From Neovahlkampfia damariscottae (Eukaryota > Heterolobosea > Selenaionea > Neovahlkampfiida > Neovahlkampfiidae): a stretch of 64,000 nt of DNA. Each line of letters begins with the position of its first letter. The first letter of the stretch is position 1. The position numbers and the translations under genes are program-made. The notes beneath the pieces are model-generated. The model did not search any database, had not been told where the DNA came from, and saw nothing but the letters and a program-made list of their open reading frames with translations. Positions 704-63,330 of this stretch are shown here, piece by piece. The DNA lies in the NCBI GenBank assembly GCA_016618085.1, contig JABLTG010000025.1:86809-150808 (forward strand). The letters run 5' to 3'.

Positions 704-708
704 ATTGG
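704..708 (+). promoter_or_regulatory. ATTGG promoter element of the peptidase gene
   Basis: The sequence TTTTTATTGGACAAACC lies 23 nt before the ATG at 731. The same pentamer occupies a similar position before nearly every gene in the window; see the finding on ATTGG/CCAAT. Confidence 0.55.
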
Positions 709-730
709 ACAAACCAACCGAAAAAAAAAA

Positions 731-1945
731 ATGAACACAACAGAAGGGAAAGCAAAACATTTAGATGAAATAGACTTACTCTTTCGTAAGATAACAACAA
801 TACATAGTGAACCAACAAATGAATCAGATTTAATTGAATACATTTGTGAGTGGTTAGTTGAAGAACATATTTGTGAAAAACATGAAATATTAAAAGACAG
901 AAAAATTGGAATTTTCATTCAAAAACAAATTTTAGTTTCAAAAAGTTCAAGTCTTAAAAATGGTGTTATGTTTTGTGGTCACTTAGATTCTTTACATTTA
1001 CCTTCCAAAGAAGATTTATCCAATACGATATTTGAAAGAAAAGAGAACAAATTACATTTTAAAAATTTGAAACAAGGAGAAGAATTAGGTTTAGATGATA
1101 AAACTGGAATCGTAACAATCTTAAAATTATTGAAAGATTTGAAAAATGAAAAAAAATTTAAAGAAAATGAACTCGAAGAAGTTTTTGTTCAAACTGAAAA
1201 AGTGAAAGAAGAAGATTTAAAATCTATTAATTTTTTTGTTTATTTTTCAATTTGTGAAGAAATTGGTCAGAAAGGAATTATTTTTTTTCCAATTGAAAAA
1301 ATATCCTCAAAGATAGAGTAACTTGCAATTTTTTTTTTAAAACTCAAAAGTGTTGCAATAGCAATTGATAGAAAAACAGATTACCATGAAAAAAATATAC
1401 AACATTATGTGAATAAATACATGGGAATTCCAACAATTCATAAAAATCATGAAGACATGATTTATGCAATGTTCAATAAAGTAAAAAAAAATATTTTTTA
1501 CAATTTTGAAAAGGCGGCAGAAAAAATGGAACTAGGAACTTCAATTGACAGATTGGAATCAAAAAATATGTCAGACATATTAGAATTGAGAGGTCGAATT
1601 GATTGTGAAGTAATTCTCAATGATTTAGTGATTGATGATATCTTAAATGATGAATTATCAAGATTATTGAATTCATATCAGTTCGCTACAAATGCGGTAA
1701 TGAATAAAATGGATGAAGTAAAACCAAATGAATCTATTGGTGGATTCAAATCACCATTGAGATCTGAAAGATATCAAAATATGAAGAAAATTAATGAAAT
1801 ATTATATTCCAAATACTCTAAACAAGTTTCAGTCGAATTTTCTTGTTTGAATTTTTCAATGGATTATGATGAACAAAATCAATACATGGATTTGAAAGAA
1901 ATTCAAAATACAGTGCTTTTAATGAAAGGATTTATTGAAGAATAA
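731..1945 (+). CDS. M20-family (peptidase T-like) metallopeptidase
   Basis: Two exons, 731-1317 and 1351-1945, split by a 33-nt intron, encode 393 residues. Zinc-peptidase landmarks appear in order: GHLDS (first metal His and catalytic Asp) near residue 78, LGLDDKTG (bridging Asp) near residue 121, and CEEIGQKG (catalytic Glu and metal Glu) near residue 178. The intron falls just after the EE motif and restores the frame (...KID, then VAIAIDR). This order is that of M20/M28-clan di-zinc exopeptidases, closest to peptidase T or tripeptidase. No signal peptide is seen, so a cytosolic peptide-trimming role is inferred. The substrate cannot be told from sequence. Confidence 0.75.
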
Positions 1946-2104
1946 AAAAAGATTTAGTTTCTAATTTGGTTAATTTTAAGTTTCATTTGGCAATTTTTCT
2001 TTCCATTCAAATTTAAAAAAAATCCGTCTTTAATTGGCCGAAAATTTTTTTTGACCAATTGAAGAATAATAAGAATTTTTGAAAAGAACAAAAAGAAATT
2101 AAAA

Positions 2105-2871: not shown

Positions 2872-3026
2872 ATAAAAATAAACTTCAAAAAAAAAATGTA
2901 ATATCATCATCTCTTTGATACGTCAAAACCAAACCAAAACTAAAAAAAACCAAAACTGAAAAACCAACACTTCTTCTATCAATAATTACAACAACAACAA
3001 CAACATAAAAGGTTAATGTAAAAAAT

Positions 3027-4447
3027 TTATTTATTTCTAGCTTCTGCTTCAGCAGCCAATTGTTTTGCTCTTTCTTCTTCTCTTTTTTTTGTATTTTCAA
3101 AAGATTGTAAAATTTCTTCTTCTGTATTTCCAGCCAATTTAAAGAATTCAATCCATTTTTCATCTGAAACAGTTTTATCAGATTTGACTACTTTTTCAGC
3201 TTTTGTTTCTTTAGTTGTTGTTGAAACTACTTTTCTTTGAGCACCTCTTGTTTCTTCAATCTTTGATTTCAAAGCTGAAATTTCCATTTCCATTTTTTTA
3301 TTTGCTTGAATTTGTTCTTGAAATTGTTTATATAAAACTTCAAGGTGTTGTTGGAATTCATTTAATTCTTCAGCTTGACCACCTGAACGACCACTTGATT
3401 TATCAGTTGTAAATGTTTCTGATGTAATTCTTGCTTCTTCTGTTTTAGCCCAAAGATCATCAACAGATTGAACGTGTTTTAATTTTTTATATCTTTCTTT
3501 ATAAGAGTAGTCAAAATCACCTTTTTCAATTTCAACTAAAATTTCATCTCTAACTTCAGGTAAGTACTTATCAATGTATTCATATGAATTAAGTTGATAA
3601 GGTAATGAATAATGATCAAATAAAATAAGTTCGGATGTATTTCTATAAACTTTACCAATTTTATCAACTTGACCAGTAAATTTAGAAAGTTCATCACCAA
3701 GTTTATCCATCTTTTAAATTTTAAAAAAATTATTTTTTTTTTTTTTACTTCTGGTTTTAAAAATGATTGGAGGATTTTTAAAACATCATTTTTAGCATAA
3801 GTTGGTTGATTATTTTTCAATGAATGATGGAATTTTTCACGTAATTCAAATGCTTTTTCTTCACCTAAATTTTTTTCAGCTTCTTCCCAATCCATAGTTG
3901 GAAGTGATGTTTCAATAAGTTTATGATGTGCTTTTTCATAATTATTAACAGATCTAAAAAGTTTTTCCCATTCTTCTTTTTCTGATTTAGATACTAATGA
4001 ATAAAATTTTTCAAGTGTTTTTGGGTCAATTTGTTGAAGTTCTGATTTTTCTGGCCATTCTGTGAATGGTTTTGTAGTATAACTTGGTACTTTTGGTAAA
4101 GGCATATCTAAAATTGAAGTATCTTGATATATAGCTTTTACTTGTTCAACAGTTTCATAACCACCTGCTTGTTTGATTATTTCGAAATATTCTTCAGATT
4201 CAATTGGTTTGTAACGAAGAATATCTTTAATTTTTGATAAAACTTGGAAGTCTACATCTGCTTTTTTTACGTATTCTGAAGGTGATCCGTATTTTGCTTC
4301 AAAATCTTTTGCTATATTGTCTGTAGTTAATCTGTTTGCTTCTGAATCAGCTCCAAAATAAACTCTTGCAGGATGATCTAATTTTTTAACTCCTGAGCTA
4401 GAACGGACAAAACTCTTTTGCTTCGCGAATTTTAACACTCTTTGCAT
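3027..4447 (-). CDS. Mitochondrial protein, possibly ATP synthase subunit d-like
   Basis: Two exons, 3749-4447 and 3027-3710, with a 38-nt intron, encode 460 residues. The N-terminus (MQRVLKFAKQKSFVRSSS) is basic and Ser-rich with no acidic residue, as expected of a mitochondrial presequence. The middle region contains LPTMDWEEAEKNL and, after the intron, YLPEVRDEILVEIEKGDFD followed by YKERYKKL. These recall the 'P-x-x-DW' and the C-terminal 'EIDAKVEEM...KGKW..Y..RF' blocks of ATP synthase stator subunit d, which is enlarged in some protists. The C-terminal 150 residues are predicted coiled coil and K/E rich. The mitochondrial location is a fair inference; the subunit d identity is weak. ATTGG at 4471-4475 precedes the start. 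Confidence 0.5.
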
Positions 4448-4624
4448 GTTGAAGAAATTCTTGAAAGATGATTGGTCAGATAAAAAAAAAATCTTTTTAA
4501 AAAAATTTTATTTAATTTTTTTGTTTTTTATAGAAAAATAAAAGTTTTTTCGCTTGACATTTTTGTTGGTGATTTGATTCACCTTTCGGAGAATAAAAAC
4601 GAAATGTAAATAATTATGAAAGTT

Positions 4625-6668: not shown

Positions 6669-6719
6669 GACTTTTTAAACCAATAGCATGAAGAATTGCC
6701 TAAACTGGATATGAAAAAT

Positions 6720-8854
6720 TCAGGAAATAGAATTGATGAAAAAAAATATTTTTGAAATGTAAAATTTAGATTTTGGGCATTCTTTACAAGATTTTGAATC
6801 TGGGACATCAAGAACAGGATTTTGATCAAAAAATCCAAATGGAGCTAAAGTGAAAGCGTTCAATTGAACAACAGGCATAATTGGAAAGTCTTCTGGTTTT
6901 ACAATGTGAGAAACACCTGTTGTAATCCAAAGAACCAAATTTTGATTTTGAATACTTCTATTTTTTTTGGTAAATGATTCAAGTGTTTTTCCACCAACAA
7001 CACCATCAGATTGATTTGGATAATTTCCAGAGGAATGCATTTCATCATCTTTAAAAGGTGTTACCCATAAATGATGTTTTAACCATGGAGCTCTTTTCAC
7101 CAACCATGAATCATCTGTCGCAAATTTTTTTACATTTGGACCAAAATGTAATGCATAAGCTGTGTTCATATGATGTGCATTTTTCTTTTCTGTGTTGAAA
7201 CTAAAAAGGTTAATAAATTTTTAAAAACAAACATTTTCCAAAATCTACATTGAACAAGATCTCTTTTTGCATCATTCTCATTTTTCAAAACAGTTTCTTG
7301 AGAATAGAAAGCATTTCCCAATGGATTTTTTGATTTTCTTTCTGTGTGGATATTCACCTCAGAAATTGAATTTTTTAATCCATCAACACACATATCCATT
7401 CTGACACTATAAATATGTTGATGAATATGTGCAACTAATCTGTCATATAAAACTGTTCTGTATTTATTTTTTTTTCATTCTTTTTCAAACCACTTAAGTT
7501 AATAATACCTGTATGCTTGACTTCAAGACTAATAGTTCCATCAAGTCCTAAATTCCAATAAAAACCATATTCATAATTTCCCACCAAAATTTTAAAAGAT
7601 GTGTTCAGTGGATTACCAGTTGCAATGAAAGAAATTATTAATTTTCTATTTCTTTTGATATATACTTCATTTAATCTCCAATCTGTGTGTTTCAATAAAA
7701 TTGAATTATCTTCTTCATGTAAACAAATAGCATTCTTGATAATGTGTGGAGAACCATCAAGAGTGGTCATAACTCCATCAAAGTATTTAATTTCACCAAC
7801 ACAATCATATCCTAATTCAAGGGAATTTGCTAATTTACCTAATCCATATTCACTTTTATTTGATTTAATAAATTAAAGCAAACCCTGCATCAAATACATT
7901 TTTGAAACAATGAAGGTCTTCAGGAGATCCATAAGGAACGACCATTTCAGCAATAGAAGCACGATAACAAACTGGACGATTATTGAAAGAAATATTTTGT
8001 AAAATTAGTCCTTCAAGGGTTGTGAAATTAATTCTAAATTTCCAATTCTGCCATTCTACTTCATTCCCATCAATATTCCATGATACCCCATGTGGTTGAG
8101 TAACTTCAATTGGATTCATGTTAGTTCTTAATTTAAATCCTTCTTCTTTCAACAACAATTCTTGTTTGTAGTTGAAACTTTTGGTTGACATTTCATTGAA
8201 TGTATCAACGATTTTTAATACTTTTGAATTTGTCAAATCAATTAAAACTGAAAGTCCTTCAACTGGATGAGCATAGCCATTGTCATCATCGGATCCAATT
8301 CTGGAATAGACCAAAGCTCTCAATAATCTTTTTCCTTTTTCTGATTCATCACCATAATAACCGGCAGTCCATGGTTCACTTGTCATATTTTTAATAAAAC
8401 TATGAATTTTACATCATCCAATGTTGTGGATTTAATTAATTTCTTTTTTTCATTGCTTTGATGAAGTTTTCATCTTGCTTGATTAATTTTTCACAAGATT
8501 CATATTCTTCAAGTGTTACAATTGGTTGACATCCCTTTGGAAGTTTTTTCCAACTCAAAATTTTTTCTGTTGTTAAAGATACAATAGTTTCATAGGAAAT
8601 TGCATGACTTTTTTCTTTGATGGAAAAACAAACAAAAATTTGTCTGTCATATTTTTTAGTTTCACTATTGAACACAATTTCTTTTGGTACTTCATGTAAA
8701 TCAATTTGATAGAAATAAATTTTTGTTTTTGTTTTTGAAATTTTCGAAAAAATTTGTTCTATGACAATTTTAGAAGTTTCTTTTATTTCTTCAGGTTAAA
8801 GCGTCTAAGAAAAATAATGAGACTTTCAAAGTAATGTTTACCAAGTGGATGCAT
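6720..8854 (-). CDS. Copper amine oxidase, 5' part frame-disrupted
   Basis: Copper amine oxidases deaminate primary amines to aldehyde, H2O2 and ammonia using a topaquinone made from an active-site Tyr. Exons 6720-7200, 7233-7452, 7491-7852 and 7884-about 8386 join cleanly and contain GNYEYGFYW (N-Y-E/D-Y, topaquinone Tyr), HIHQHIYSVRMDM (two copper His) and HHLWVTPF (third copper His). The 5' part starts with a 13-nt exon (8842-8854, MHPL) and an intron 8805-8841, then shows three single-base breaks: near 8795-8804 (before PEEIK), near 8440-8450 (after KAMKK) and near 8385-8392 (before MTSEPW). No GT...AG intron explains the latter two. All lie in or beside A/T homopolymers, so assembly error or recent pseudogenisation are both possible. 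CCAAT at 8876-8880. Confidence 0.8.
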
Positions 8855-9069
8855 CAATCAACCGATTTTTTTGAACCAATCATCTTCAGATACCAAATGT
8901 AATTTTTAATTTAAATTTAATTTCATTTTGGAAGTACAAATTAAAAAAATGACAAAAAACATTCTATGGAACCTTCCACTGGTTTGTTCAATCAAATTGG
9001 ATATTTCAGTTCCAATAAACAATTAGAAATAAATGTGATTGGTTAAATTTTTATTTTACTTGAAGCTAA

Positions 9070-10521
9070 GTGATGAAGATTCATGTGTTAATTCTTCTGG
9101 TATTTATTGCTTCTTCAATTGCAAATAATTTAATTATCAAAGGAGGGATTTGGTATGACGGTGACAATTCAAATCCCATTGCAAACAATGACAAAATTTT
9201 AATAATCAAGAATGGATTAATTAACTCAATACAACCTTTATCACTCATGCAAGGAGTAAAAAAATTCTACAAGAATTATAGAATTATCGATATTACAGGA
9301 AAGTTTTTAGTACCTGGATATTATGATGTTCATTATCATTCCACCTCTTCATCTTTTGGAGAAATATTTTTTCCTTTTTGGTTGAATCAAGAAGTAAGTT
9401 ACAGTTATTTAGTTAAATTAAAGATGGTTGAAAAATATCCTGGAAAAGAAGCAATGGAATATGCCCATAAGTATCGAAAATTGAATAGAGAACAAGCATT
9501 AAGAAGTGGTATCACAGCACTAACTGAAATCGGAGGTCCTTTATACTCAATTTCATATGTAATATTCATATTATCTTCTAACCATTTAAGTATAGAGAAA
9601 CCATTGAAAATCACGATTCACCAATATTCTATCCTTCTGGAAATATGTTGTGGGTTTCATCAGTTCCTCCTTTACCTGATATACCAGTTATCAATGTAGA
9701 GTTGAAGAATATTTCACATGCCATTGATGTGACTCGAAGACAAATTATGATGGGTGCTAAAACTATTAAATTCTATTATGTAATTCCTCAAGGAAGAAAA
9801 CCAGAAGAATTTTTACCAATCTGTGAAGCTGTTGTGAAAATATGTAGACAATTTAAAGTTCCTGTTGTTGCACATCCAGCATCAAATACTTTTGAAGCAG
9901 CAATTCAATGTAATATCTTCATTTATTAATAATTAAACAGGTGGTGTTGATGCATTGGTACATGGTGTATTTGATCGTGTGATTGATCAAAAATTTATTG
10001 ATTTAATGAAAAAACACGGAACTTATTATACTCCTACATTTCAAATTCATGAAGGATATTATCAACTTTCTCATAATGTTTTATTTGAATCAACAAAAAG
10101 ACAATTGGAAAAAATGATTGATACAAGAACCAAAGAAAGAATTATGACAATTCCAAAAATGCCAGAAGCTCTCAGAAAACAACCATTTATAAATTTGTCA
10201 ATGGCAAAACAAAATTTAAAAATTCTTCATGATGCAGGAGTTCCTATATTAACTGGAACGGATTGTGGTCTCCCTGTTGCAATTCATGGCTTAATGCTTC
10301 ATCGAGAATTTGAATATTATCAAGAAGCAGGAATTAAACCAATTGACATATTGAAACAAACAACATCAAATCCTTCGAAGTTGTGGAAAAGAAATCATGG
10401 AATTATTAAAATTGGATTTAATGGGGATTTGAATATTTTAGAAAAAGATCCATCCAAAGATGCTAGAAATTTGAATACTATTCATTCAACAATCAGATTG
10501 GGAAAACAGCATGTTTGGTGA
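9070..10521 (+). CDS. Secreted/lumenal metal-dependent amidohydrolase
   Basis: Three exons (9070-9558, 9591-9909, 9941-10521) encode 462 residues. An N-terminal signal peptide is clear (MKIHVLILLVFIASSIA). The amidohydrolase-1 fold signature is present: DVHYH (metal HxH) near residue 92, a KTIKFYY Lys that may be the carbamylated bridging residue, VAHPAS, LVHGVFD, and TGTDCG with the catalytic Asp. This is the imidazolonepropionase/prolidase-like branch, which cleaves C-N bonds of cyclic amides or dipeptides. Two introns fall at GGPLYSISY and at EAAIQC. A protein entering the secretory pathway, either lysosomal or extracellular, is inferred; the substrate is unknown. ATTGG lies at 9038-9042. 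Confidence 0.8.
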
Positions 10522-10933: not shown

Positions 10934-13900
10934 ATGGTATACTTTCAAATTCAACTAAACGATGTAGATATTGTCAAAGGATTAATTTCCACAATAAACG
11001 ATGAAGATCCAAAAATCAAAGAAGAAATTCATCAATCTCTTTGTAAAATCGGAAGCAAAGAACCTTTAATGGTTTTAAGTAAATCTTTGGCATTTATGAA
11101 TGGTGGCTCAAGATCAGATAAACAACACAGAATTTGTGTCATGAAGGTTATTTCAGAAGTTATTGACAAAAACGACTTTAAATGGACAAAAGAAATTGGA
11201 GAAGCAATGATTATCATGGCATCTCAAGAAATGATCGCTGAGTCAAGTATTGATCATGTTTGGCAAGAAGCTTCTTCAAAAGTTTTAATTTCCATGGCTA
11301 GAATTGCTCCAAAAAAAGTTGCAACAGAATTGTTAGATTATTTACCAGCAAATACACCACCACACTATTTTGTCATAAAGACACTTGGTGACTTTGCTTA
11401 TAATTATCGTATTTTTTTTTTTTTTTTTAAATTTTTAGCAACTTCTTTTTTACCTCATTTGAAAGAAATTTTAACAAGAACATTACCAATTCTTGCCATG
11501 TTGAAACATGATAATCTTAGATGGGTTTTTGCTGCTGCCATTGGAAGGTGGGCTGAAGCTGTAATTGTTGCAACAAATGATACAGAAAATCCAACTCCAA
11601 TTCCAATTAGTGAATTTTCAGCTCAAATGGATACTGCTTTAAAACACATTCACAAAGAGTGGTTACTCAAAATGTCTTCAAAGTAAATACCCAAAAAAAA
11701 TTAAAATTAACAACAGAATTCGTTTGGCTTCAGCTGAAGGTATTGGATATATGGCTCATATCATTGAAAAAGATCATATTGAAGAACAATTAGATGGCTT
11801 AATTGCTTCATTTTTGAACTTAATAGGAAAAGAACTCAAAGAACAACAAGCTGTGACAATTGGACTATCAAATCTTATTGAATCTGTAATTAGAAGTACA
11901 CCTGATTCACTTATAACTCATGTTGATATTTTGTTAAAAACTTTTCAAACATACATTAATAGTCTTAATAATGCAAGTTCACCAAACTCAATAAAAAATA
12001 GAGAAGCTTATTTAAGATGTTATGAGTTACTTGGAAGACATTACCCGGATAAAGTAATTACATGGCTCATTAAACAATTTGATAATTCAGCCACCAATGT
12101 TAAAATTGCGACATTATCAATTTTAAGACATTTAGTGAATAAACTCAAAAAAGAATTATCCACTTATAAAGAATTAATTGTTGGTGGCGTTAAACTTGTT
12201 ATCAAAATTGATGACAACAGAGTAAATCTTTAGAAATAGTTTAATCTTTTTTAAGGCACGTCTAGAATTGTTGAAATTAATTTGTGAAATGGGAAAAAGA
12301 GGTTATTTATCAAAATTAGGTGGAACTGATTTACTTGCTGTTGTAGTTGATGCTGCTTCAATAACAGATAAACAAATTTCAAGCTTTGATAAAAAAAATA
12401 AAAAAGATGGAAATTATCCACCAAACATGACTGCTTTGCATGAAATCAGAGATGAAGCTGATAAAATTCTTTTTGGATTTTCAGAAGCAAATATGAGTGA
12501 AAAATTAGACAAAGTGTTTTGGCCATTCCTTTTTGAATTTTTCAATGAAGGAAAACATACAGCAGCTTTTGGTATTTTAGCAAAAATTGCAGCTGATGTT
12601 GCAAAAAGAAAAAAAGAAGATGAAGATTTTATGATTGATTTTACAGCTCAAGTCAACTTACCAAAACCACATCAAATTTTAACAAGATTGTTAACTATGT
12701 TACATGAACCATATGCAAGAAATCAAAATGGAGTTAATATCCTCAGAGCTTTATATTGTTTATCACCTTTATTCCATGAAGAAGTTATTGAAGTTTGGGC
12801 AAAACTTTTACCAGAAATGAAAAAATATATTGATGGTAAAAAAAAAACTAAAATTAAAAATTCTAAAAGATGAAACAAATTTTGCACTTGAACATTGGGA
12901 AAATATGATTTTACAATTAGTTAGGGCAAGTGTAGTTGCTGTTGGAGATGATGAATGGTCAGTCAAACTTGGAAATGCATTCATTCAATCAGCACCTTTA
13001 TATTCAGGAGATGAAGCAACAAAAAAAATGTTGTTAAGTATTATTGGACTTGGTAAACAAATTATTGATCATTTATTCTTTAGTTATACAAAAAACAAGT
13101 CTCAAAGAATTTGTTTTTAATGCAATTACTGATTTATTTTTTGCAACAGATCATACAAATGAAGAAGAAAGATTAGGATGTGCTAGAGGTTTAGGTCAAG
13201 CTGCATCTGTTCACACTGACGCAGTTTTAAATAATCTTCAAACTGTCATGAAATCATCAATCAAAACTAGTGGATTCTTTTATACATTAAAACCTACTGA
13301 TATCACATCTGGATGTAAAGCATCAGCACTTTTAGCTTATGGGTATATTGCGATGCTAATTCCAATAAACTTAATTCCTTCAAGAATGGAAGTGTATATC
13401 ATTCAAAACATCACACCAACATTGAAAACAGAAAAATATCCAGAAATTAAAGAAAATGGATTAAAAGCTTTAAATTTAGTAGGACAAGCAGTTCATCCAA
13501 ATAGAATGCCTGATTATACATTGAAATCACGTGATGAATTAATCACATTGATTTTATCATTAATTGGAAAAAGTGTGAAAGATTCAAATATACATGCATT
13601 AAGAAAATATGGATTAGAAGCATTGGCAACATTAATCAAATTACCACCAAGATTAGATTCAAAACTTCAAGCAACCATTTTAGAAAAAACTTTATTTCTT
13701 TATTCAGTAAAAGTTGAAGGAGCTGGTGATGTTACTGAAGATGTCATTTTAGAAAATTTGAATTTAATGTTATTTTCAATTTTACATATTGAATTAAAAG
13801 AAACAAATTTAAATGATTTATTGTTAGCTTTGGAACCATTTACCAAACATAAAGATGTTAAACAAAGAGAAAAATCAATGAACTCTTATGTTGCTTTATT

Positions 13901-16084: not shown

Positions 16085-16131
16085 AAATAAAAAGTTTAGT
16101 TTTTTTTAACCAATCGAAAGGTTTTTTTCAG

Positions 16132-17344: not shown

Positions 17345-19762
17345 TTAAAAGACTTCTTCTTGTAATTCAATTTCTTTTGGTGATTTAACCTCTTTTTTTC
17401 TTAATACATTCGCAATTTGATTTCCAACTTTCACTGAAAGTGATTGAAAAACGAAGTAGGCTTTAGGAACAAACATCAAACTGAGAATAATAATCAAAGC
17501 TAAAAAATTTGCAATGTAAAAAATGATTGACAATGCAATGATGTCTGTTACAATGAACATAATTGGTACAGTCACTAAAAATATCAATGCCATTGAAAAA
17601 GTCTAAAAATACTCATTAGAATTTTTTTGATTCAGTACTGAAAATGAAAGAAAATGAACTTCATAGAATAATGAAGAGATTGTTCTTGAATAAATTGATA
17701 TAATTAAAGCCCAAATTAAAATCAAACATTTGTATCCAATCAAAACACCCATTACAACCGGGTCATCATCACATAAAATGAATTTTGTTGTTTCTCCGTA
17801 AGCCAAATCAAAAATTTGAGGAGGATGAACAAGAGCCCATAAAAGTAATAAAATCTAAAAATAGGTTATGGAAAATTGATTTACTGTTTGGGCGACTAAG
17901 AATACAATCAAATATCTTGCAATGTAACTATTTGATTTGAAGTTACTCTCGTTTTCTGTTGTAACTGCATTTTTACGACCATAGTATCTATAATATTTTT
18001 GATTTTTAGCGAATAAAGAACCAACAACGAAAACAAAACCATAACTGAAACTATATCCTCTGCAAAGACAAATCGTTAAATTATTGTAATTTATCAGTGT
18101 TGTTAAAATAACTGAAATCATTAGTAAAATAGAGCCAAATAATATCAATAATAAAGCCCATGGTGTCGCTTTTCTTATTGGTTGTTTTGTATAACAAGCC
18201 AAAACAAAAATCATGAAAAAAATACATATAATAATAAAACCAGAAGCAATTCCAATCACAGTATAAGTCAACCATTCTGGATATCCAGGAGTCAAAAAGT
18301 CTGTAAACAATATTAAATCCTTGAAAAATTAGTTTTCGTTTGATTGTTACTGTTTTTCCTGCATTGGAATGTGTGGTCAAATTATAATTCTCCGAAAAGG
18401 CAAAATGAACACTAAATGTAGAACGTGTAAAGTTCGTATCAAATAAATCACTTGAGACTCTAGATCTTGTAAATTGTACTTTTGTGACCCCTAATGATTC
18501 AATGAATGTCACGCTTTCTCCAATATTACTATGTTGCCCACCAAGAGCAATATCCAATATCTAAAAGTATATAAGAAGAGAATTAAGCTTACTGGAACTC
18601 CATAAGATGTATTTCCATAATAATCTCCGACTTCATATTTTCCATTTTGTAGTCTGCCAATTACAAGATCAACTCCGAGGTGATGTGTAGTATTTCCGAC
18701 CTCTTTGAATCCAATTCCAACCCATCCTGTCGCTGAAAAAAGTCAGATAATTATTTTTCTTACTGATTCCTTGTATTTCAAAATCTACATGAGTTGAGTT
18801 GTATCTCCAGTAAAGTTTGTATCGTGAGTGGAATAAATGAGATCTTTGATATTCACCATCTGTTTCATCAAATGGGTTTGTTGAATGTTGTTTAATTGAT
18901 TGATAATCGAATAATTTGGATTTGAATTTTTTAACATCTGACAAACTTTGTGGTTTTGTGAATCTTTTGTACGGAAGCAGAAGCAAAACTCTTGTTAAAG
19001 TATCTTTTTTGTTATCAAATGATTCAAGGTGAATTCCAATGGAAGTGTCTAAATTATCAATTGTTTTGTAGATTGAAGTCAAAGTTGAAAGAATTTTTTG
19101 ATTTTTTGTTAATTCAGTGAAGTGTTTCAAAGTTTTGAGTCCGAATAATAGGCGAAGTTCATTGTATTTTCGAATCTTCAGTTTTTGTTCTTGTGTTAAA
19201 AAATTGATAATTTCTTTTTTTTTCAATTTGGTGGCATTGTAAAATTTAATGTGAAGAATTTTCATTGTTAATTCATGTAAAAATAATGATGTTTCTTTTG
19301 AAAATTGATTATTTACAGTTTTTGACTGAGTTGTGAACACTGAAGGAATCCATTCATCAAAAAAAAAGGTTTCAACCAAACTTAACAACGTTTCATCAGC
19401 TCCTACAGTAATATCATCATTATTATCTAATAGACTCTTTTTTTTCATCATATTAATTCGTAATTTATGTTCATCTAAAAGTCTTGTGAAAAGACTTTTT
19501 TTCTCCGATTGATTTGGCAATAATTTTACAAGTTTCTTCAATTTTGGAATATCTAAGACTTTACTTTCAAGAGACTCTGATATAGTTAGTGAATAATTAT
19601 AAGATTACTTTGTGAGCTTTGGAAAAGATGGAAAAAATGTTTTTGTTGAAAGTTTATCGTTGAAACAGAATTTTCCTGGAATAGGTCTATTTTGTTTTCA
19701 CATCCGCTCACTAGTAGCGCTATTGTTAGCAACAGAAACAACTTCAAGTTATTGAGTATCAT
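17345..19762 (-). CDS. Seven-transmembrane class C-like receptor with DOMON ectodomain
   Basis: Seven exons (19609-19762, 18764-19576, 18593-18732, 18351-18560, 17885-18319, 17639-17854, 17345-17602) encode 741 residues. A signal peptide (MILNNLKLFLLLTIALLVSG) leads a helical region of about 260 residues. A DOMON-type beta sandwich follows, about residues 295-430 (VDFEIQG, TTGWVGIGFKEVG, HLGVDLVIGRLQNG). Then come seven hydrophobic segments, about 445-725. The third helix ends GSLFAKNQKYYRYY and the last reads MFVPKAYFVF, matching the class C 'FxPK.Y' signature. DOMON domains bind heme or sugars, so a ligand-gated G-protein receptor is inferred. The start is fixed by the signal peptide and by CCAAT at 19784-19788. 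The stop lies 10 bp from that of the dioxygenase. Confidence 0.8.
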
Positions 19763-19936
19763 TCCAACGTATTGTTGAGCCGACCAATGAGCGCAAAGAA
19801 ATTAAAAGATACGAAAAAAGAATTTTTCCGGAGAATTCAGAAAAGAACAAAAATCTTGAAAGAACAAAAAATTAGAGAAACGAAATATTAATAACTCCGA
19901 TCCAATCAAATAAAACCTTCTATTGTTCAACGACAT

Positions 19937-21771: not shown

Positions 21772-21940
21772 CAAACAAATCAAAATGGAATAGTGGAAGT
21801 ATTATTGGACAAAAGAACATCCAATAAAAAGGCAGTGGTAAAATATTGAAGAAAGTTTTTTTCAATTTTCTTTAAAAATAACGATGCTTTACCTTAGATG
21901 TCATTTTATGAACCTACTTTTCATTGGATAAACAAAAAAC

Positions 21941-22793: not shown

Positions 22794-22883
22794 ACCAGAC
22801 ACTGAAGTAAACCTTTCTTTTAAATTTCCATTTGTTTTCTTATTGGTTGTTTTTGTGTGGATTTTTTATTTATCATTAAGAGA

Positions 22884-26910: not shown

Positions 26911-27022
26911 TTTTGATTTCTTAGTTTGATTGGTCATCCAAACAAAACATCGAATCAAATAAAAACTTTCAAAAAGTACAAAAAAAAATAAGCTTTTTTA
27001 AAAACTGGTTGGAAAATTGAAT

Positions 27023-28608: not shown

Positions 28609-28784
28609 TTTGTTACAAAAAGTTTTTGAGCAAATTAACCAATCAGGTTTAACTAATTTGACCAATGGTTTTTTATCAGAAAGAGAATTTTTTCTATGAA
28701 CAATTTTTTAGCAATTTTTCACAAAAATAAATATTCTGCCTTTCTCTTAAAAACCTTTGCTTTTGATTGGTTTATTATTTTTTG

Positions 28785-31230: not shown

Positions 31231-31373
31231 AAAGTAAATAACTTGTGATTAAAATAAAAGAAGTCATTTTGAGGGGAATATTTCATTTTATTTAGCAAGT
31301 GGAATTTCCTCAATTGAAATCAGATTTTTCAGCTTCACTCTTTATCATTGGATAAATATTTACACCAATTAAA

Positions 31374-32163: not shown

Positions 32164-32258
32164 AATATTTTGTTTGAGAATTCAATCTTTTTTCTGTCTA
32201 TTTTTAGATCGGAGGTTTCTATGATTGGACAACCAGATTTATTACGGAGTTTAGTGAA

Positions 32259-34915: not shown

Positions 34916-35017
34916 TTAAGTTTTTTTTATTTGGTTTTGGAAGTTTTTAGAAATTCTTTAGAACCTTTTTATTGGACAAAACAGATCAAGTTGAAAAAAA
35001 AGTCAACGTTAAAAAAC

Positions 35018-36941: not shown

Positions 36942-36977
36942 TTTTTTGGTTTTTGAAAATATGAACGATTTCATTGG

Positions 36978-37955: not shown

Positions 37956-38032
37956 CAATTGACTTTATTGACTTTAAAATTACCCTATTGGTCGAAATCA
38001 TTTTGATTGAATTGGGTATTTATCATAAAAAT

Positions 38033-38843: not shown

Positions 38844-38865
38844 ATTGGTTGTTTTTTTAACCAAT
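38844..38865. promoter_or_regulatory. Bidirectional promoter with inverted ATTGG/CCAAT pair
   Basis: ATTGGTT and AACCAATC form an imperfect inverted repeat separated by about ten T-rich bases, between two divergent genes (38823 and 38901). Each copy is 20-40 nt from one start codon. Confidence 0.5.
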
Positions 38866-42398: not shown

Positions 42399-42545
42399 TT
42401 TTTGGAGTGATTCTATTCGTCAATTTTCATCAAAACAAAAAGAAAAGTGAAATACCACATAAATATTGATTCTGAAAAATTTATTTTCATTCTATTTTTT
42501 TCATCTCAAAAAAAACAGTTCGATTTGATTGGATAATTGTAATTG

Positions 42546-46657: not shown

Positions 46658-46842
46658 AAATTTTCATTTTCAAAGTGTCATTTTAATTGGTTAAAACAGA
46701 GAGGTTTTATTGGTTGTTTGATTGTCCAATTGGCAAAGACTATATTTGACCAATGGTGTGATCGATTTTTCCCGCTCAAAATAATTATAAATGATTGGCC
46801 AAAATTGCCGTTATTCAACAAAAACAAAAACAAATAACAAAG

Positions 46843-47667
46843 ATGAGCACAACACCAATTGTCACAAGAACTGAATGGAAAAAGAAAAAAATTGATAGAT
46901 CAAAAAGAGTTGCACCAGGAGCAGTCATTGATGAAAAAAACATTTTGACAAAATCGAGAAGAAAAGGAGCAAAACTCACTGTTGAACAAAGAAACAAAGA
47001 AAACAAAGCATCAAACAAAAAAGTTGAAAAAAAACCAGTTGAAAAAAAACCAGTTGCAAAAAAAGAAAAGAAAGAAGAAAAAGTTGAAGAACAACAAGAA
47101 CAACAAGAACAACAAGAACAACAAGAACAACAAGAACAAGAAACAAAACTTCAAGAAGTAACAGAATCAGTTGAAAACATGAAAGTTACAGAATCAGCTC
47201 CAACAAAATCAACACCAACAAAAACAAGAAAATCAGCAACAAAAATAAAAGGAGTTTCAGCTAAAGTTTCAGCACAAATTGAAAGACTTGGAGGAAAAGT
47301 ACAAGAACTTGGTGAAAGAAGATACTACAGAGATTCTGAAAATCCAATGCCAATCGCTATTCAATTATTCTGTGATGCTTTTGTTGGAAAAGAAGAAGTC
47401 AAATTCTGTTCATTAAAACATAAACTCGAAGAAATTACATTTGGTCAAGAATTTACATTAGAAGAATTTGAAGATTTCAAATATTTAAAAAAAGATGATA
47501 TCTTGATTGGAGATGGAGAAAGTTTAGTTGTTGCAAATGGAAAAGATACACGTGAAGATTTTGAAGTGTGCTTGGTTGAAGATGAAGAATCAAAACCAGT
47601 TGGTCCATTTAAAATTTCAGAATTTTTGAAAACTGTTGAAGTTACACAAATCACTGAAGCAGAATAA
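46843..47667 (+). CDS. Lysine-rich protein of unknown function with EQQ repeats
   Basis: A single exon of 274 residues from the ATG at 46843. The in-frame ATG at 46795 is part of the ATTGG element (46794-46798) and is not used. The N-terminal half is basic and disordered (KKPVEKKPVAKKEKKEEK) with six tandem EQQ units near 47088-47141. The C-terminal half looks folded (MPIAIQLFCDAFVGKEE, EFTLEEFEDFKYLKKDDI) but matches no family I know. The low-complexity region is a CAA/GAA trinucleotide tract prone to length change. Confidence 0.7.
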   Translation: MSTTPIVTRTEWKKKKIDRSKRVAPGAVIDEKNILTKSRRKGAKLTVEQRNKENKASNKKVEKKPVEKKPVAKKEKKEEKVEEQQEQQEQQEQQEQQEQETKLQEVTESVENMKVTESAPTKSTPTKTRKSATKIKGVSAKVSAQIERLGGKVQELGERRYYRDSENPMPIAIQLFCDAFVGKEEVKFCSLKHKLEEITFGQEFTLEEFEDFKYLKKDDILIGDGESLVVANGKDTREDFEVCLVEDEESKPVGPFKISEFLKTVEVTQITEAE

Positions 47668-47892: not shown

Positions 47893-48339
47893 TTATTCTG
47901 ACATCATTGTTCTAACAAATTCTTCGTATCTAATAATACCATCATTATTTGTATCAGCATCTCTCAATAATTCATCAACTTCATCTTCGCTTAATTTTTC
48001 TCCTAAAGTTGTCATAACATGTCTTAACTCAGCTGCTGAAATAGTACCTGTGCCATCTTTATCAAAAACTCTGAAGGCTTCTTTAATTTCTTCTTCTGTA
48101 TCGTTGTCTCCAATTTTTTTTTCCATGAGACGAAGAAATTCATTAAAATCAATTGTACCATTTTTATCTTGATCAACTTCATTAATCATATCTGTGAGTT
48201 CTGCTTCTGTAGGGTTTTGTCCAAGTGCTCTCATTACAGTTCCTAATTCTTTGGTGGAAATTGTTCCATCACCATCTTTATCAAAAAGTGAAAAGGCTTC
48301 TTTAAATTCTGCGATTTGTGTATCATCAAGTTTGGACAT
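47893..48339 (-). CDS. Calmodulin
   Basis: A single exon of 148 residues, the exact canonical length. Four EF-hands are intact: [36 protein letters not shown] and [12 protein letters not shown]. Characteristic blocks are [13 protein letters not shown] and [13 protein letters not shown]; the linker is shortened and altered ([16 protein letters not shown]). It is the cytosolic calcium sensor that regulates kinases, phosphatases and channels. It is divergently arranged with the small gene at 48425, sharing a palindromic CCAAT...ATTGG promoter. Confidence 0.97.
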
Positions 48340-48388: not shown

Positions 48389-48418
48389 CCAATAAAAATC
48401 ATCCTTTGATTTTATTGG
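48389..48418. promoter_or_regulatory. Bidirectional promoter with CCAAT...ATTGG palindrome
   Basis: CCAATAAAA and TTTTATTGG are perfect reverse complements separated by about a dozen bases, between the divergent calmodulin and 48425 genes. Each motif copy lies within about 50 nt of one start codon. Confidence 0.55.
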
Positions 48419-52163: not shown

Positions 52164-52191
52164 CCAATTAGTCTAGTTGAATTTATCCAAT
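52164..52191. promoter_or_regulatory. Divergent promoter with two CCAAT elements
   Basis: CCAAT at 52164-52168 lies 25 nt from the USP7 start, and CCAAT at 52187-52191 lies 30 nt before the start of the V-ATPase subunit e gene. Only 81 bp separate the two start codons. Confidence 0.45.
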
Positions 52192-52496: not shown

Positions 52497-52670
52497 AACG
52501 ACACATTGAATTCTTTGAATAAAAATTTTTAAAAGGATGTTAAATTATAAATATCTACATAAAAAAAACAAAACTGAAATTTTTTTAACTTGAACTTTTT
52601 TGTTAAGTAAAATTTGACCAATTATATTCATCAGTTCTTCAATCTCTACCAAAAACAAACTTGAAATACG

Positions 52671-53006
52671 ATGACTATTGGAATACCTATAAAACTTTTA
52701 CACGAAACTGAAGGACATACAGTTACAATAGAATTAAAATCAGGAGAAGTTTATCGTGGACATTTAGCTGAATGTGAGGACAACATGAATTGTCAATTGA
52801 AAAATGTAACTCTTACTGCAAAAGATGGAAAAGTTACAGCTTTAGAATTAGTGTATATTCGTGGTAGTAAAATTAGATATTTTATTATTCCTGACATGTT
52901 GAGAAACGCTCCAATGTTTAAACAAGTAGATCCTTCAAAACAAACTTCAAGAGGAAGTGGAAACGGCTTTGCTCTTGGAAGAGGAAAACAAATGTTACCA
53001 AAATAA
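52671..53006 (+). CDS. Small nuclear ribonucleoprotein SmD3
   Basis: A single exon of 111 residues. It has both Sm motifs: [20 protein letters not shown] followed by CEDNMNCQL, and [21 protein letters not shown], the latter diagnostic of SmD3. A short basic GRG tail follows. It is part of the heptameric Sm ring on spliceosomal snRNAs, in keeping with the intron-rich genes here. CCAAT at 52618-52622. Confidence 0.95.
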
Positions 53007-53256
53007 ATTATATTTTAATTTTTTGTCTTCATAATTTTCCACATTGTTGAATGATTTAAAAATAAAAAAAAAAAAAAAAAAATTCTTGATTTTTTTCAGT
53101 AACAATGTCATTATTGATTCAAAACATGAAAAAAAAGGGAAAAAAAAATTTTCCATTTTTTAAAATCTTTTCACTTCATGTAAAGAATTCACTAAATTCC
53201 GATTGGCTATCGAGAGTCATAAAAATCTTCATTTTTTTTTTTGACTTATCAAAAAC

Positions 53257-56200
53257 ATGTCTGGAGAAAACAAAGAAGAACCAGAAAACAAAAAGACAAA
53301 GGTAGAAATTCCTGATGGTGATGTTGATGACCTTGTTGGAGACTTAATCAAAGAAGAACTCCAACTCTTAATCACAAGGTAATTTAACAATTAAAAAATC
53401 CTCTAACTTTTCCGAAGAGTTATCAAAGACAACACAGAATTTGTGGACCCTATCAAAGACCAAATCGTTAAAATTATTAAATCACGCTCAAGACAAACAC
53501 CAGCTCCAAAAGTTACTCAAGAACAAATGTCACAGTTAATTCAAAATCCATCTGCTCAACAACTTTTCCAAGCTACACAATCTCTTGGAACACAAATGGG
53601 AATGTCTTCACAAGATTTATTTGGTGGTTTTTCACAACCAATGCTTCCTTTCATGGGAGGTGGTATGAGACCTCAAGGTGGTGGCGGTGGTGGAATGATG
53701 ATGCCAGGTATGGATTTAGATAAATACGGGGTAGATGTTGGTTCTATTCGTAGAAGAGTCAAAGAAGCATTTCAAACAAATTCAAAAAAAAGTAAAAAAA
53801 GAGGAGGTTTTGGACAAGATTCAGGAAATGATCGTTACCATGTTGTTAATTATATTATTCAAGAAGAAATTAAAACTGGTAAAAATGCTATTATGATTTC
53901 AAATGACGTCAGAAAAGGTTTATCAATTTTTGAAGCAGTAACATCTGAATATGTTAATAGAGGTGCTGAACTTGGTGAAAATACTATTGATGGATATCAA
54001 GATATGTTAGAAGAAATTGCAAATGAATGGATTGAAATTATGCTAGACTCAAACCTTGATGGTAAAAATAAAAAAAAAAAAAAAATTTAACATTTTTTTC
54101 TTCAGAAATTGGAGATGAACGTAAACAATGGGTTGAAAAACTTTATGAATGGGATACTTCAGCTTCAGAAGAAGAAGGTACATTTTCAATTGCCAGAGCA
54201 GCAGCAAAATTAGGATGGAAAGATACACAATTACAACAAGTATTAAAAGGTGAAGGTATTGGAAAATACAAAGAACCACAAGCTTTAAGTGTTGCTAGAT
54301 TAAATCAATTAGAAAGAGAAAAAAGATATGAAGAAGGTGTTAATCTTGCAAAATCAGTTGATTTAGATTTTTATACTGCAAAATTCCTTTTAAAATTAGA
54401 TAAAAAAGAAGAAGCTGAACAAATTGCTGTTCGATATGTTTTAGATCCTTCAAAATTATTTTCAATTGCTCAAGTTGCTAAATCAGTTGATGTTGAAATT
54501 GCTTTTGGACTTGCTATTAGAAGTATTGGAATGTTAAAAGATAATCTTCCACAAACATGGAGTAATGATATTTATGAAAGAACAATGTGGGTTATTGATT
54601 TATCAATTAGTCAACATTTAGAAGAAACATTAATTAAAAAGACAAAAGAATTAATTAAAAACAAATCATTTCAATTTGAAATGTGTAAAATGTTAAAACA
54701 AAAAGAACAATTCCAAACTGCTTTAGAAATTGCAAAATATTGTTTAACACCTTATTCAGTTCAAGATGAATCAAAAATTGAAAAAATTCAAAAAGTACAA
54801 ATTCAACAACAACAACAACAAAAACTTGAAGGTACACCAACTGGTCAAACATCTTCAACATCATTACAAGATACAGTTGCTTTACAAGATGTTGACCCAG
54901 GTTCTATTATTCCATCACAATTATGTGTTTGGTTATGGGAACTTTCACATGAAATGTTATTATTAGATTTATGTTCAGAAAATGAAATGAAAATTGTTTT
55001 AAAATTTATTTTAGATACAGAAAAAGATTCAAATCAATTGGTTCAATTAATTAGAAGAATGAAAGAAAAATTAGAATGGGAATTAATTATTCAAGTTGGA
55101 TTTCAAATATTTGAAATTGTTAAACAACAAAGAGAAAAAGAATCAACTGAACAAAAAGCATTTATCAAAATGATTATTGAAGATCCTTCAATTTTAGAAA
55201 CAAATCCATTAGCACAATTAATTTCAATTAATTATAATTCAACATGGGATAATTCAATTTATAATTCATGTCAACAAATGATTAATGCAATTTCTGAAAG
55301 TAGAAAAGAAAAAGCTCCAATTTTAAATGTTGTTGAAACAACAACTAATAATAAACCAAAATTAAGAGAAATTGAACCAATTTCTGAAGTTATTGCTAAA
55401 AAAGTTTTAGAAAAATGTTTAGAAAATTTAACAGTTATTGATCATCAAATTAATTTCGGAAATTTACTTTTTTCAGTTAAAGAATATTCAATGGTTCTTG
55501 AATCATCAGAAAAATTCTTAAAACATATTGTTTCTTTAGAAAAAGAAAAAAAGAAAATTGATGAATGGGTTCAAGATTTAGCTGATTTAAGACAAGAAGA
55601 ACAAGAATTAATTTCAAAAAACAAAAAATTAAAACAAAATCTTGTTGATAAAATGAAAAAACTTCAATATGAAGAACAAGTTTTAAAACTTTCACATCGT
55701 TCAGTTAATTACAATGCTCAAAGATATGACCAATTAAAATTACAAATTATTCAAAATACAGTTACATCTGGATTAAATGGTGTAGATGAAGAAAAAATAC
55801 AATTTGATGAATTTGAAACAGTTCTTGATACACTTTTACAATATTTAAGAAATCCAAATCATTTCATTCAATTAGGAAATACATTTAACATGAGAAGAGA
55901 ATTTAGATTAACAAACAAAGTTGGTCAAAAATGTCAACAAATTGTTGAAGTTTTGAGAGAAAAATATACTGAAAGAAAGAAATTAGAAGTTCCATATAAT
56001 TTATTAATTCAAGAACAAGAATATTATTTATCAAATTTAAAAACAGTTCCTTCAAAATTACAAGAAGAAATTAAAGAACAATTAAAAAAAATTGATCAAT
56101 TAGATGAAGTTGAATATTTTGATTCAAGTTCAAATATAGATTATTATGATAATACACATTATTCAATTGCTCAACAAATGATTCAAGGTTCAATAAACTC

Positions 56201-59790: not shown

Positions 59791-59807
59791 TGTTGATTTT
59801 TACTTTC

Positions 59808-59922: not shown

Positions 59923-60153
59923 CAGAAATATTTCGTGCTTGTTACCTGAGAACATCGGATTTCCTCTCCACATGACTGTCTTGATTTTTTTCATCAAAAA
60001 AAACTCATTTTCCCCTTTTGATATTTTATTGATTTTTTGCTGCGTTTTTTGTGACATGAAAAATTTGGTGATGATTGGTCAAAAATTTTTACTTTTTGTA
60101 GTTCTGACCAAGTCAGAATTATTGAAAGCAAAATTATTTCTTTTATTAATATA

Positions 60154-61180
60154 ATGACAGACCAACAAATAAGACAATTAATTAACGACCCTGAAAAAGG
60201 TTTGAACAGTGATTTGAAAAAACTCCAGACAATGTTAAAAGATCATGGAATCAACACAACACAAAAAAAAATTAAAGAAATTAGAGATAAACAAAATTGG
60301 TATCAATTAACCAAAAAAGTTAAAAAAACAAAAACACTTTAACTCTATTATGGTTCCAGAAAATTCAATTTTGTATTATATGGATGTTATTGTTTATAAT
60401 CGTTTTAAAATCCATGGATATCAATATATTTTGAATGTCGTTGATACAAATTCAAGGTATGTAGCTTCAAGAGCTTTAACAAATATGAAATTAAAAGAAT
60501 CAACCAGAGGAAATAAAGCGGTTACACTTCTCGATGCTGTGAAAGAAATTATGGAGGAATTGGGATATCCAAAAGAATTAAGATGTGATAATCAATTTAT
60601 TTCTGATGATTTTGTTAAATTAATGAAAGAAAATGATGTTAAAGTTGTTTATTCTGAAACTGATGATTTAATTAAAAATTCATTGGTTGAATCATTTAAC
60701 AGAACTTTAGCAGTTTTATTGCAAAATTGGAGAGTGTCAACAGGTAAAACAGAATGGTACAAAGTATTACCTATGATTATTAAAAAATATAATAACACCA
60801 TTCATTCAACCATAAATGCTAAACCTGCAGATGTTTGGAGCGGAAAAGACATTAATCGTCAAGAAATAAAAAGGGTAGTTTCCAAGTTTACTATTGGTGA
60901 TAAAGTAAGAATAGTTTCAAATAAAAAAATTTCCGAAAAAGGAGATTCCATAAAAAATTCAAAATCCATCTACATAATCACTCACGTTGTCGGAAATAAA
61001 TACAAATTAAAAAATTTGGAATCTGGAGCAACTGGTGATAAATTATTTAATCCAAGAAATTTATTGAAAGTTACAGATGTTGATGAAATTAATAAAATTA
61101 TTGAACCAAAGCAAACTGAAGCAGAAAAACCTAAATTTATTGGAACTACCATCATAAAAACAAGAAAAAATAAGAAGTAA
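60154..61180 (+). CDS. Polinton/Maverick-type DDE integrase with one frame break
   Basis: Two frames, 60154-60342 (62 residues) and 60350-61180 (276 residues), meet with a single-base shift. The first holds the N-terminal module (LNSDLKKLQTMLKDHGI, WYQLTKKVKK). The second holds the rve core: YYMDVIV (first Asp), LRCDNQFIS (second Asp) and SLVESFNRTL (Glu), then NNTIHSTINAKPADVW. An SH3-like end follows, with FTIGDKVRIVSNKK and YKLKNLESG. The order matches Polinton and Ginger-like integrases, which cut and paste element ends. The catalytic DDE triad is complete. The frame break lies by A-rich sequence (AAAAAAACAAAAACAC), so a sequencing error or inactivation is possible. No intron explains it. 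ATTGG at 60074-60078. Confidence 0.85.
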
Positions 61181-61369
61181 AATATTTGTTCTTGGAACTC
61201 TTTTTCATCTTCTTCAGTTGTGAAATATAAAATTTGGTTGTTTTGAATTGAATTTATGTCAACTATTTCAGCTTCAATTGGTAGAGATTCTCTAATTTTA
61301 ATTCCTTTTATTTTTAAGTATTCATTTTCAATTCCTAACAACTTCTCCAAATCTTCTGGTAGTTGAATT

Positions 61370-63306
61370 TTAGTTCCCCTTTTTTTGTCCATATTTTCTT
61401 AAGATGACATTTTTTTTATCTTGAATCTTTGGTATTTTTGAAATAGATTCCTCAATTTCTTCAAATTGATTTAATTTTCTCTTTTTTTCTCCAAATTGAA
61501 TTGGATTTTTTTTTTTTACAATAATTTCTTTTTGATTTTCAATATAAATTTTAAAAGTCAAAAAATCAGAAGAATGATAAATGTACATTGTTTTAACTGT
61601 TGAAGATTTTGGAAACCAATATTTCTTTGTTTCAAGTTTTTTTGGATCCACAGTTGTCCAATTGATTACCCAAGTTTCTTTTGCTTTCAATCCAAAATGA
61701 TACAATTCTCCTTGTCTATAAACATGATGCCATAATGTAGATGTTGTGTTATATGAAGGTTTTAAATTTAAAGTTAAATTAACTCCATGTTCTATCAAAT
61801 AAATATTATCTTGATCCAATTTCATTAACATATCACAAGAAATGGCTTGTTGAGGGAATTGATGTGATTTTAATTTTGAACTCTTGTATGATGAGAATTT
61901 ATCTAAAGGAACATTTTTTTCTAAATTGTATCTATATTATTTAAAATAATATTTTTTTTTTACATGATGGATTGAAAATTAGAAAGTGTTTGTTTGAGTG
62001 ATTGATAAAATTCAACTCGATAAATAGATTCTTTACATCCAGGAATTTCTTTTGATAAGCAACTATTGTTTGACAATCTTTCACCAAATATTAATGGTAC
62101 AATTTTGATATTTTCAATGGTTGCTTTTACAATAGCACGTATATTCAAATTGTCGTTCAAATAAGGAAGAGTGATTAAAGGTTGTTGTATTTGTTTATTC
62201 ATTGAAAAAAGTAACCATTTTTCAACAAAAGGAGATGCAATAATAAATTTTCCAGATAATTTTCTTAAAATATTTGCTCTTTGTAAAATATTTGATTCTT
62301 GAGGATAGAGTGTATTGATATCTTGATGTTGAAAAAAACTATAAAGTGTTTTTAGACATGAAACATCACTATCAATTAATTTAATCATTTTTCCAAAATT
62401 GACTGATTCATCACGAGCATAATCAAATAAATCCATTCCATAGACAAGACTTTTCCATTCAGAGGTTGTTGGAACTGTTTTTTTTTTAATTACTATATCT
62501 TCAGATAAATATTTTCCAAATAAAGTTGTTAAACCTTGTGCACCTAAAGTTTGATCATAAATATCTTTTTTTATTTCTGATTCAATTTTTATATTTTCTT
62601 GATCTTCATATTGTTCAAATAATTCATTCAATTCTTCCAAAGTAAAATAGGATGAAACAATCTTATTTGATATATTAAATGGTGAACTTCCAAGAGTATC
62701 ATAAATATAATCTCCTGCCCAATTAGTTATTCCAAGAACTGAATGTAAACAATTGGAATCAAAGTCTTGTATTTTCTTTTGTTTTAATGTTCTCAACATT
62801 GATAAAAATCTATTTTTAATATCTTTATGAAGATTTGATATGGAATCTAATTCATCCAAAATGAGAATACAATCTTTTCCATCATAATATTCTTCTTTAA
62901 ATTTAAAAAGTTCATAAAATGAAGATGATTCAAATGAAAGTGTTGGTATTTTTTTTCCAGTAATTTTTTCAATTTTTAAAGAAAATTCTTTGAAAAATTC
63001 TTCATAAAATTTATCTGAACTTTGATTTTTATCTACAATACCGAGGATATCAATATAAATTGGTAAAAATTGATCTTTTAATTGATCCAATAATTTATTT
63101 ACACGAGTAGTTTTACCACTTTGACTTGGAGCAACAAGTAAAAGATAGTGACCAATTTTTAGTTGAGGAATTAAATTTTTTTCATTCCATTCAGAAGGAT
63201 CAATATAAAAATGATAACGTGGATCTACTAAACCATTTGGACAAAAACATCTTTTAACTGATCCTGTAATTTTTTCTTGATCCTTAACAAGTTTTGTTTG
63301 ATCCAT
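61370..63306 (-). CDS. AAA-type ATPase with REase-like domain (Crinkler-effector/transposon type)
   Basis: Exons 61964-63306 and 61370-61931, with a 32-nt intron, give 634 residues. Residues 50-160 carry a P-loop (APSQSGKTTR, first Gly replaced by Ala) and a Walker B (CILILDELDSI); a sensor-like GITNWAGDY and a helical/winged-helix region follow. After about residue 430 a second domain appears: SIYRVEFYQSL, YLIEHGVNLTLNL, LWHHVYRQGELYHFGL, ETWVINWTT and YIYHSSDFLTFKIYI. These resemble the order of the nuclease-like (PD-(D/E)xK) domain of Crinkler NTPase-REase proteins. The stop at 61370 follows a GGACAAAAAAAGGGG run; in the next frame the protein could continue to about 61199 (QLPEDLEKLLGI, IQNNQILYF). 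No signal peptide is seen. ATTGG at 63326-63330. Confidence 0.7.
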
Positions 63307-63330
63307 TTAAAACAGAATCTTTATGATTGG

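Follow-up and report, generated by a model that had tools for sequence, protein, structure and literature searches.

Classical CCAAT boxes are situated 60–100 bp before the transcription start, the mammalian CCAAT box works in both orientations, and CCAAT ordinarily counts as one of several promoter elements. Here, we describe an ATTGG/CCAAT pentamer placed shortly before predicted genes of the heterolobosean Neovahlkampfia damariscottae, starting from a 64,000-nt stretch (the window; contig JABLTG010000025.1, positions 86,809 to 150,808, assembly GCA_016618085.1). In mammals, some 25% of core promoters contain CCAAT, and a TBP-like role has been suggested for NF-Y (PMC7793273). NF-Y holds promoters there free of nucleosomes and affects where transcription starts; depletion of NF-YA caused 538 significant start shifts, the vast majority upstream, among all or part of 3056 NF-Y-bound promoters (PMC6624317). 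Phytophthora infestans has 1953 CCAAT matches at a strict cut-off, at a median distance of 83 nt upstream of the initiator, with orientations of 984/969 and a T-rich flank; most are no more than 150 nt from the start codon, and the core promoter there consists of the initiator (INR) and the flanking promoter region (FPR) (PMC3599244). Entamoeba invadens has three NF-Y subunits, its cyst nuclear extracts bind CCAAT through NF-Y, and 354 of 900 cyst genes have CCAAT in their promoters, with no preferred place within 500 nt (PMC6581852). Among the matches listed in our literature search, nothing concerned a CCAAT motif in Naegleria or Heterolobosea; subscription journals lie mostly outside the coverage of that search.

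Measured against these accounts, the genome described here shares with mammals the same pentamer, its occurrence in both orientations, and an encoded NF-Y trimer, but the pentamer stands close to the ATG, at −70 to −8 for 79% of the sampled starts and no farther than 100 nt away for 86%. Equal orientations, closeness to the start codon, and a T-rich flank are features in common with P. infestans, where, unlike here, INR and FPR serve as the core promoter; the cut-offs used there are not comparable with ours. E. invadens is also an amoeboid protist with all three subunits. Its CCAAT is linked to one developmental programme, without positional enrichment. The genome differs from the known CCAAT systems in reach and closeness, not in kind. 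We consider it likely that the element is a near-universal, promoter-proximal, putative NF-Y site lying unusually near the ATG.

Results

The pentamer before predicted gene starts

The assembly holding the window comprises 20.4 Mb in 307 contigs and has a G+C content of about 27%. Gene starts were taken from a two-strand hidden Markov gene finder, which was trained on the window and twenty 10-kb stretches (264 kb) and took only coding statistics, splice sites, ATG, and stop as its signals, its models being made without cDNA. The twenty stretches were picked by coordinate, yet from contigs already known to carry somewhere the 14-mer of the original prediction, which had been made on the window alone. 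Of 197 predicted genes, 157 had a coding sequence (CDS) of 300 nt or more; a start preceded by 200 nt of upstream DNA was available for 145 of the 157. All starts are predicted ones from this one genome. Some are wrong, such as 19451 in the window, and the first exon is apparently absent from the model at L011 of a gene whose product we take to be 14-3-3-like; such errors lower the motif count. A held-out set of 40 kb was obtained later with every setting fixed.

Because the pentamer is common in the window (246 copies), enrichment at promoters needed testing. At −70 to −8, 114 of the 145 starts (79%) had a pentamer, compared with 25.2 ± 4.6 in dinucleotide shuffles (maximum 41 in 500). Control windows of 62 nt contained it in 44/145 cases at −200 to −138 and in 28/128 cases downstream of stops. 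Within 100 nt, the figures were 124/145 (86%) for starts and 44/128 (34%) after stops. ATTGG was the top-ranked pentamer in promoters (z 16.5); eight of the next ten overlap the extended site described below, and ACCGT (9 vs 2.6 expected) and AAAAA do not. The count against shuffles and other pentamers that the original prediction had called for, run here on the 264-kb sample, thereby came out in its favour, as did the promoter specificity it proposed.

Copy numbers were also compared with a Markov-1 expectation: 143 vs 25.9 at −70 to −8 (17.0 per kb), 85 vs 34.0 at −200 to −110 (6.8 per kb), 57 vs 32.1 in the first 100 nt after stops (4.6 per kb), 664 vs 551.5 in CDS (3.3 per kb), 29 vs 12.2 in introns (2.3 per kb), and an equal 17 vs 17.4 in convergent gaps (2.7 per kb). 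The pentamer is also in excess in other non-coding DNA, but promoters hold by far the most. The equal frequency in introns, CDS, and sequence after stops that had been named as a refutation was not observed. Counts by gap class, which depend less on exact start positions, agreed: 40/41 divergent and 53/56 tandem gaps had a pentamer, against 12/39 convergent ones. For the held-out set, 20/22 starts had one within 100 nt and 17/22 at −70 to −8, with 6/6 divergent, 8/9 tandem, and 0/6 convergent gaps containing it.

ATTGG and CCAAT each peak at about −60 to −15. The gap between motif and ATG has quartiles of 20, 28.5, and 39.5 nt and a 5th–95th percentile range of 9 to 59 nt, and 57 sites are forward and 63 reverse, with median gaps of 30 and 28 nt. 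The site thus lies in both orientations and, by its median gap, much nearer the ATG than a classical box, as had been claimed. The classical vertebrate geometry of 60–100 bp before the transcription start was not found: in 114/120 cases the motif ends less than 60 nt before the predicted ATG, so that any transcription start upstream of the ATG would be nearer than 60 bp. A TATA box as the promoter signal was ruled out by the depletion of TATAA at −70 to −8 (19 vs 36.5 expected).

Within the window, the pentamer was present at all 33 coordinates that the original prediction had listed, and 30 of them are at most 100 nt upstream of a gene-finder start; the other three (6680, 16110, 19784) stand a short way before ATGs whose models were merged or misplaced in gene finding. 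The alleged near-universality held as well, with a pentamer within 100 nt of 31 of the 33 window genes with a CDS of at least 300 nt, the two others being the gene at 77 (at the window edge) and the gene placed at 19451. One match is dubious: the pentamer is only 1 nt before the automatic start at 42296, and the longer open reading frame (ORF) starting at 42398 has none within 100 nt. Four places had been named as false upstream ATGs; 48419 and 36974 are indeed ATG, but 46795 and 26958 read TTG.

Extent and orientation of the site

Unsupervised expectation maximization with up to 40 random promoter 14-mer seeds yielded TTTgATTGGttAAA, with about 0.9 of the sequences assigned in the best run. 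The best 12 solutions were all the same motif (0.85–0.98 of sequences assigned), and the five CCAAT positions were near-invariant (0.90–0.98). The extended site covers about 14 bp, TTTgATTGGwyrAA, in either orientation. Its T-rich and A-rich flanks keep the motif's own orientation and not that of the gene, as expected of a protein footprint. Genome-wide, the 14-mer of the original prediction, TTTTATTGGACAAA, occurs 61 times vs 0 for the reversed pattern; TTTGATTGGTYRAA, with T after ATTGG, 246 vs 1; TTTGATTGGAYRAA, with A, 330 vs 2; and TTTGATTGGCYRAA, with C, in 33 copies. A scrambled core gave 8 vs 6 reversed. The usual NF-Y form is CCAATCA, and the site favours this word (55 vs 8.7 expected).

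Adjacent sites whose starts are under 15 nt from each other occur less often than under random placement (12 vs 27.1), and those 15–24 nt apart more often (27 vs 13.5); short spacings are avoided as if bound bodies required space. Same-orientation neighbours are fewer than with shuffled labels (27 vs 35.8). Forward-then-reverse pairs are slightly in excess (26 vs 18.1, p 0.02, 167 promoters). The palindrome TTTGAttggTCAAA was dropped as a candidate, the G at −1 and the C at +6 not being associated (both in 19/173 sites, p 0.25). When the motif was masked, the search for a second common motif returned only A/T runs and small-count words, such as AACGTTA (7).

NF-Y subunits and basal transcription machinery

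For NF-YA, the entire 56-position domain was matched at C33 (PF02045, 4.3e-25; PDB 4awl_A, 1.5e-21), and the DNA-binding stretch aligns without gaps to solved NF-YA chains. NF-YC matched 7c9o_C (1.5e-31) and 4awl_C (1.9e-25), and NF-YB matched 1n1j_A and 4awl_B (1.7e-16) over one exon. By these matches, the genome encodes NF-YA, NF-YB, and NF-YC, the identity of the latter two being clear from comparison with the solved chains. The contrast with NF-Y implied in the original prediction did not survive, given the three encoded subunits and the favoured CCAATCA. An NC2-beta-like protein is present and TBP matches fall at one place in the genome, indicating that the usual machinery has not been lost.

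A second, divergent, partial NF-YA match was also noticed (C221 / L030 1444-1605; PF02045 positions 26–56, 1.2e-7). By eye, five CCAAT words precede the ATG of the NF-YA gene within 200 nt (L029 960-1173), an arrangement that would be compatible with self-regulation, and a single one lies about 52 nt ahead of the NF-YB ATG.

Leader signals and likely transcription starts

ATG triplets occupy 23 of 4039 places between motif and start (58.1 expected) and 56 of 5076 just upstream of the motif (80.5 expected), where they are also below expectation; they are rarer in the former region (Fisher p 0.006). CAT triplets show no such step (74/4039 vs 81/5076, p 0.42), and over the motif itself the ATG count equals the expected one (17 vs 17.0). 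With the farthest motifs (34–70 nt), the ATG step is small (5.6 vs 7.2 per 1000). The words CAA, CAAA, and CAAAC are enriched on the sense strand from about −25 to −1 (167 promoters), likely a leader signature. These two weak sequence proxies point to leaders that are a few tens of nucleotides long and, at most motifs, begin downstream, and because ATG is scarcer between motif and start, we infer that the site is mostly upstream of the transcript.

A fixed spacing between motif and leader, sought by comparing near and far motifs, was not found. The CAA-rich stretch keeps to the 18 nt directly before the ATG with near and far motifs alike; being tied to the ATG and not to the motif, it speaks against a rigid core element. 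The fixed orientation of an initiator was not seen either, both orientations being equally frequent. The suggestion of an initiator-like element could therefore not be upheld in view of the orientation balance, the variable gap, and the leader-like stretch that tracks the ATG, although the site may be a core promoter element.

Sites in the window and neighbouring features

The sites are compiled in the table. The gene at 48339 (−) is presumably calmodulin-like. Among the 120 listed of 7993 matches to the NOP58 of the window, the best two proteins have 74% and 72% identity, the third by score is a 'Sesamum radiatum' record marked 'unverified contaminant' (49%), and the next organism-named ones are from Willaertia magna and Naegleria fowleri (66% each); by this single protein, the genome looks heterolobosean-like. 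An integrase-like ORF (60350-61180, by eye) and, near it, an AAA-type ATPase-like ORF (61960-63306) are possibly mobile-element genes, and small ORFs at L017 1887-3753 resemble decayed retroelement pieces. Introns in the 264-kb sample have a median length of 35 nt (10th–90th percentile 30–55), with GTAARW donors and T-rich acceptors.

Table. CCAAT-box sites in the window, from a coordinate check against gene-finder starts unless stated otherwise
Feature	Positions	Strand	Associated gene or ORF; remarks
CCAAT-box site	704..708	+	gene start 731 (+), 22 nt between
Site	2055..2059	-	gene at 2105 (+)
Site	4471..4475	+	gene at 4447 (-)
Site	6680..6684	-	ORF from 6668 (-), merged by gene finder into longer model
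Site, absent from original list	8418..8422	-	gene at 8386 (-)
Site	8876..8880	-	gene at 8854 (-)
Site	9038..9042	+	gene at 9073 (+); further copies 8996, 9012
Paired sites, CCAAT 10869 and ATTGG 10877	10869..10881		gene at 10934 (+)
Site	16110..16114	-	ORF from 16132 (+)
Site	19784..19788	-	likely start 19762 (-), signal-peptide-like N terminus, by eye
Site	21804..21808	+	gene at 21771 (-); second copy 21821
Site	21923..21927	+	gene at 21941 (+)
Site	22842..22846	+	gene at 22884 (+)
Site	26929..26933	+	gene at 26910 (-)
Site	28639..28643	-	gene at 28608 (-), NOP58; second copy 28662
Site	28766..28770	+	gene at 28785 (+)
Site	31347..31351	+	gene at 31374 (+)
Site	32224..32228	+	gene at 32259 (+)
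Lone shared site	34971..34975	+	divergent genes 34915 (-), 35018 (+); coordinate check
Site	36973..36977	+	gene at 36941 (-)
Site	37987..37991	+	gene at 37955 (-); second copy 38011
Paired sites 38844, 38861	38844..38865		divergent genes 38823 (-), 38901 (+)
Site	42528..42532	+	gene at 42546 (+)
Site	46794..46798	+	gene at 46843 (+)
Paired sites 48389, 48414	48389..48418		between gene 48339 (-) and ORF 48419 (+)
Paired sites 52164, 52187	52164..52191	-	gene 52139 (-), small ORF 52221 (+)
Site	52618..52622	-	gene at 52671 (+)
Site	53202..53206	+	gene at 53257 (+)
Site, weak case	60074..60078	+	about 75 nt before short ORF 60154 (+)
Site	63326..63330	+	gene at 63306 (-); second copy 63360

Discussion

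The site, its promoter specificity, its position, its orientation balance, and the three subunit genes are directly established. Most protein-coding genes would carry, roughly 10 to 60 nt ahead of the ATG, the site of about 14 bp, TTTgATTGGwyrAA, and its reader is most likely the conserved NF-Y (CCAAT-binding) trimer, whose binding to the site we infer from motif and genes. NF-YA would grip CCAAT, and the histone-fold pair of NF-YB and NF-YC would hold the flanking DNA, keeping a short nucleosome-free patch open. The polymerase II machinery would then start transcription nearby, and the site might in this way set where transcription starts. Both orientations and the variable spacing make the site unlike an initiator. 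A more far-reaching version, which we regard as possible but rather doubtful, is that NF-Y acts as a general initiation factor in this lineage: TATA and initiator would be replaced by the site at nearly all polymerase II promoters, where the NF-YB/NF-YC pair would place the machinery a few tens of bases off, ahead of very short leaders.

Several observations weigh against the NF-Y reading. Within 100 nt, 21 of the 145 starts had no pentamer, some of these being visibly misplaced and others apparently real (for example L026 9691), and 9/19 of the held-out downstream 100-nt windows had one, which exceeds the share seen in the first set. NF-YB is weaker in Pfam, its first exon alone being unmatched and its third exon reaching 21.0 bits against a cut-off of 21.4. 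NF-Y genes are widespread among eukaryotes, so their presence is weak evidence for a promoter-wide role. Finally, CCAAT is in most cases preceded by A or T (A 83, T 56, G 4, C 4; n=147). The usual NF-Y consensus has A or G before CCAAT, with RRCCAATSR as the flank consensus; the 3' side matches it (CCAATCA), and the 5' side has A or T, as in ATTGG copies elsewhere. Because 190 copies outside promoters share the preference (A 81, T 86, G 12, C 11), it is probably base composition, and the altered preference first read from the genome-wide counts was dropped.

The same departure from the consensus is what might speak for another protein, such as a Y-box, homeodomain, or lineage-specific factor, as the reader of TTTgATTGGwyrAA, together with the scarcity of TTTGATTGGCYRAA (33 copies, where the forms with T and A have 246 and 330); the hint is weak, as non-promoter copies are alike. 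We find such a reader improbable, since the CCAAT core, the freedom of orientation, and the CCAATCA enrichment fit NF-Y, all three subunits of which are encoded. Still less probable is an element acting at the RNA level in the 5' leader, as a translation enhancer or as an initiator over the transcription start. The short distance to the ATG (below 60 nt in 114/120) would suit it, and the ATG-containing sense form ATGATTGG in 8/167 promoters vs 16 for CCAATCAT is a weak hint of selection against ATG. But the orientations are equal, which is why an initiator or leader element was rejected, and ATG is rarer between motif and start than just upstream of the motif, with no step in CAT and ATG at expectation over the motif, small as the step is at 34–70 nt; the leader thus seems mostly to begin after the motif. 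We give hardly any credence to an artefact of composition or a reading bias, ATTGG being merely common in the genome. The 246 copies in the window and the excess in CDS, introns, and sequence after stops could be cited for it, but it is ruled out by the shuffles (25.2 vs 114), by the convergent gaps (17 vs 17.4 expected; 0/6 in the held-out set), and by the scrambled core, with 8 copies genome-wide vs 246 and 330.

Taken as a putative NF-Y site, the motif has a practical use, because it flags gene starts in a genome where introns are about 35 nt and intergenic gaps very short. The sequence evidence suggests that one conserved factor, NF-Y, may mark most promoters. If true, N. damariscottae would be a simple natural case for testing whether basal initiation and the choice of start site can rest on NF-Y, and would represent a branch of the eukaryotes whose promoter code is different.

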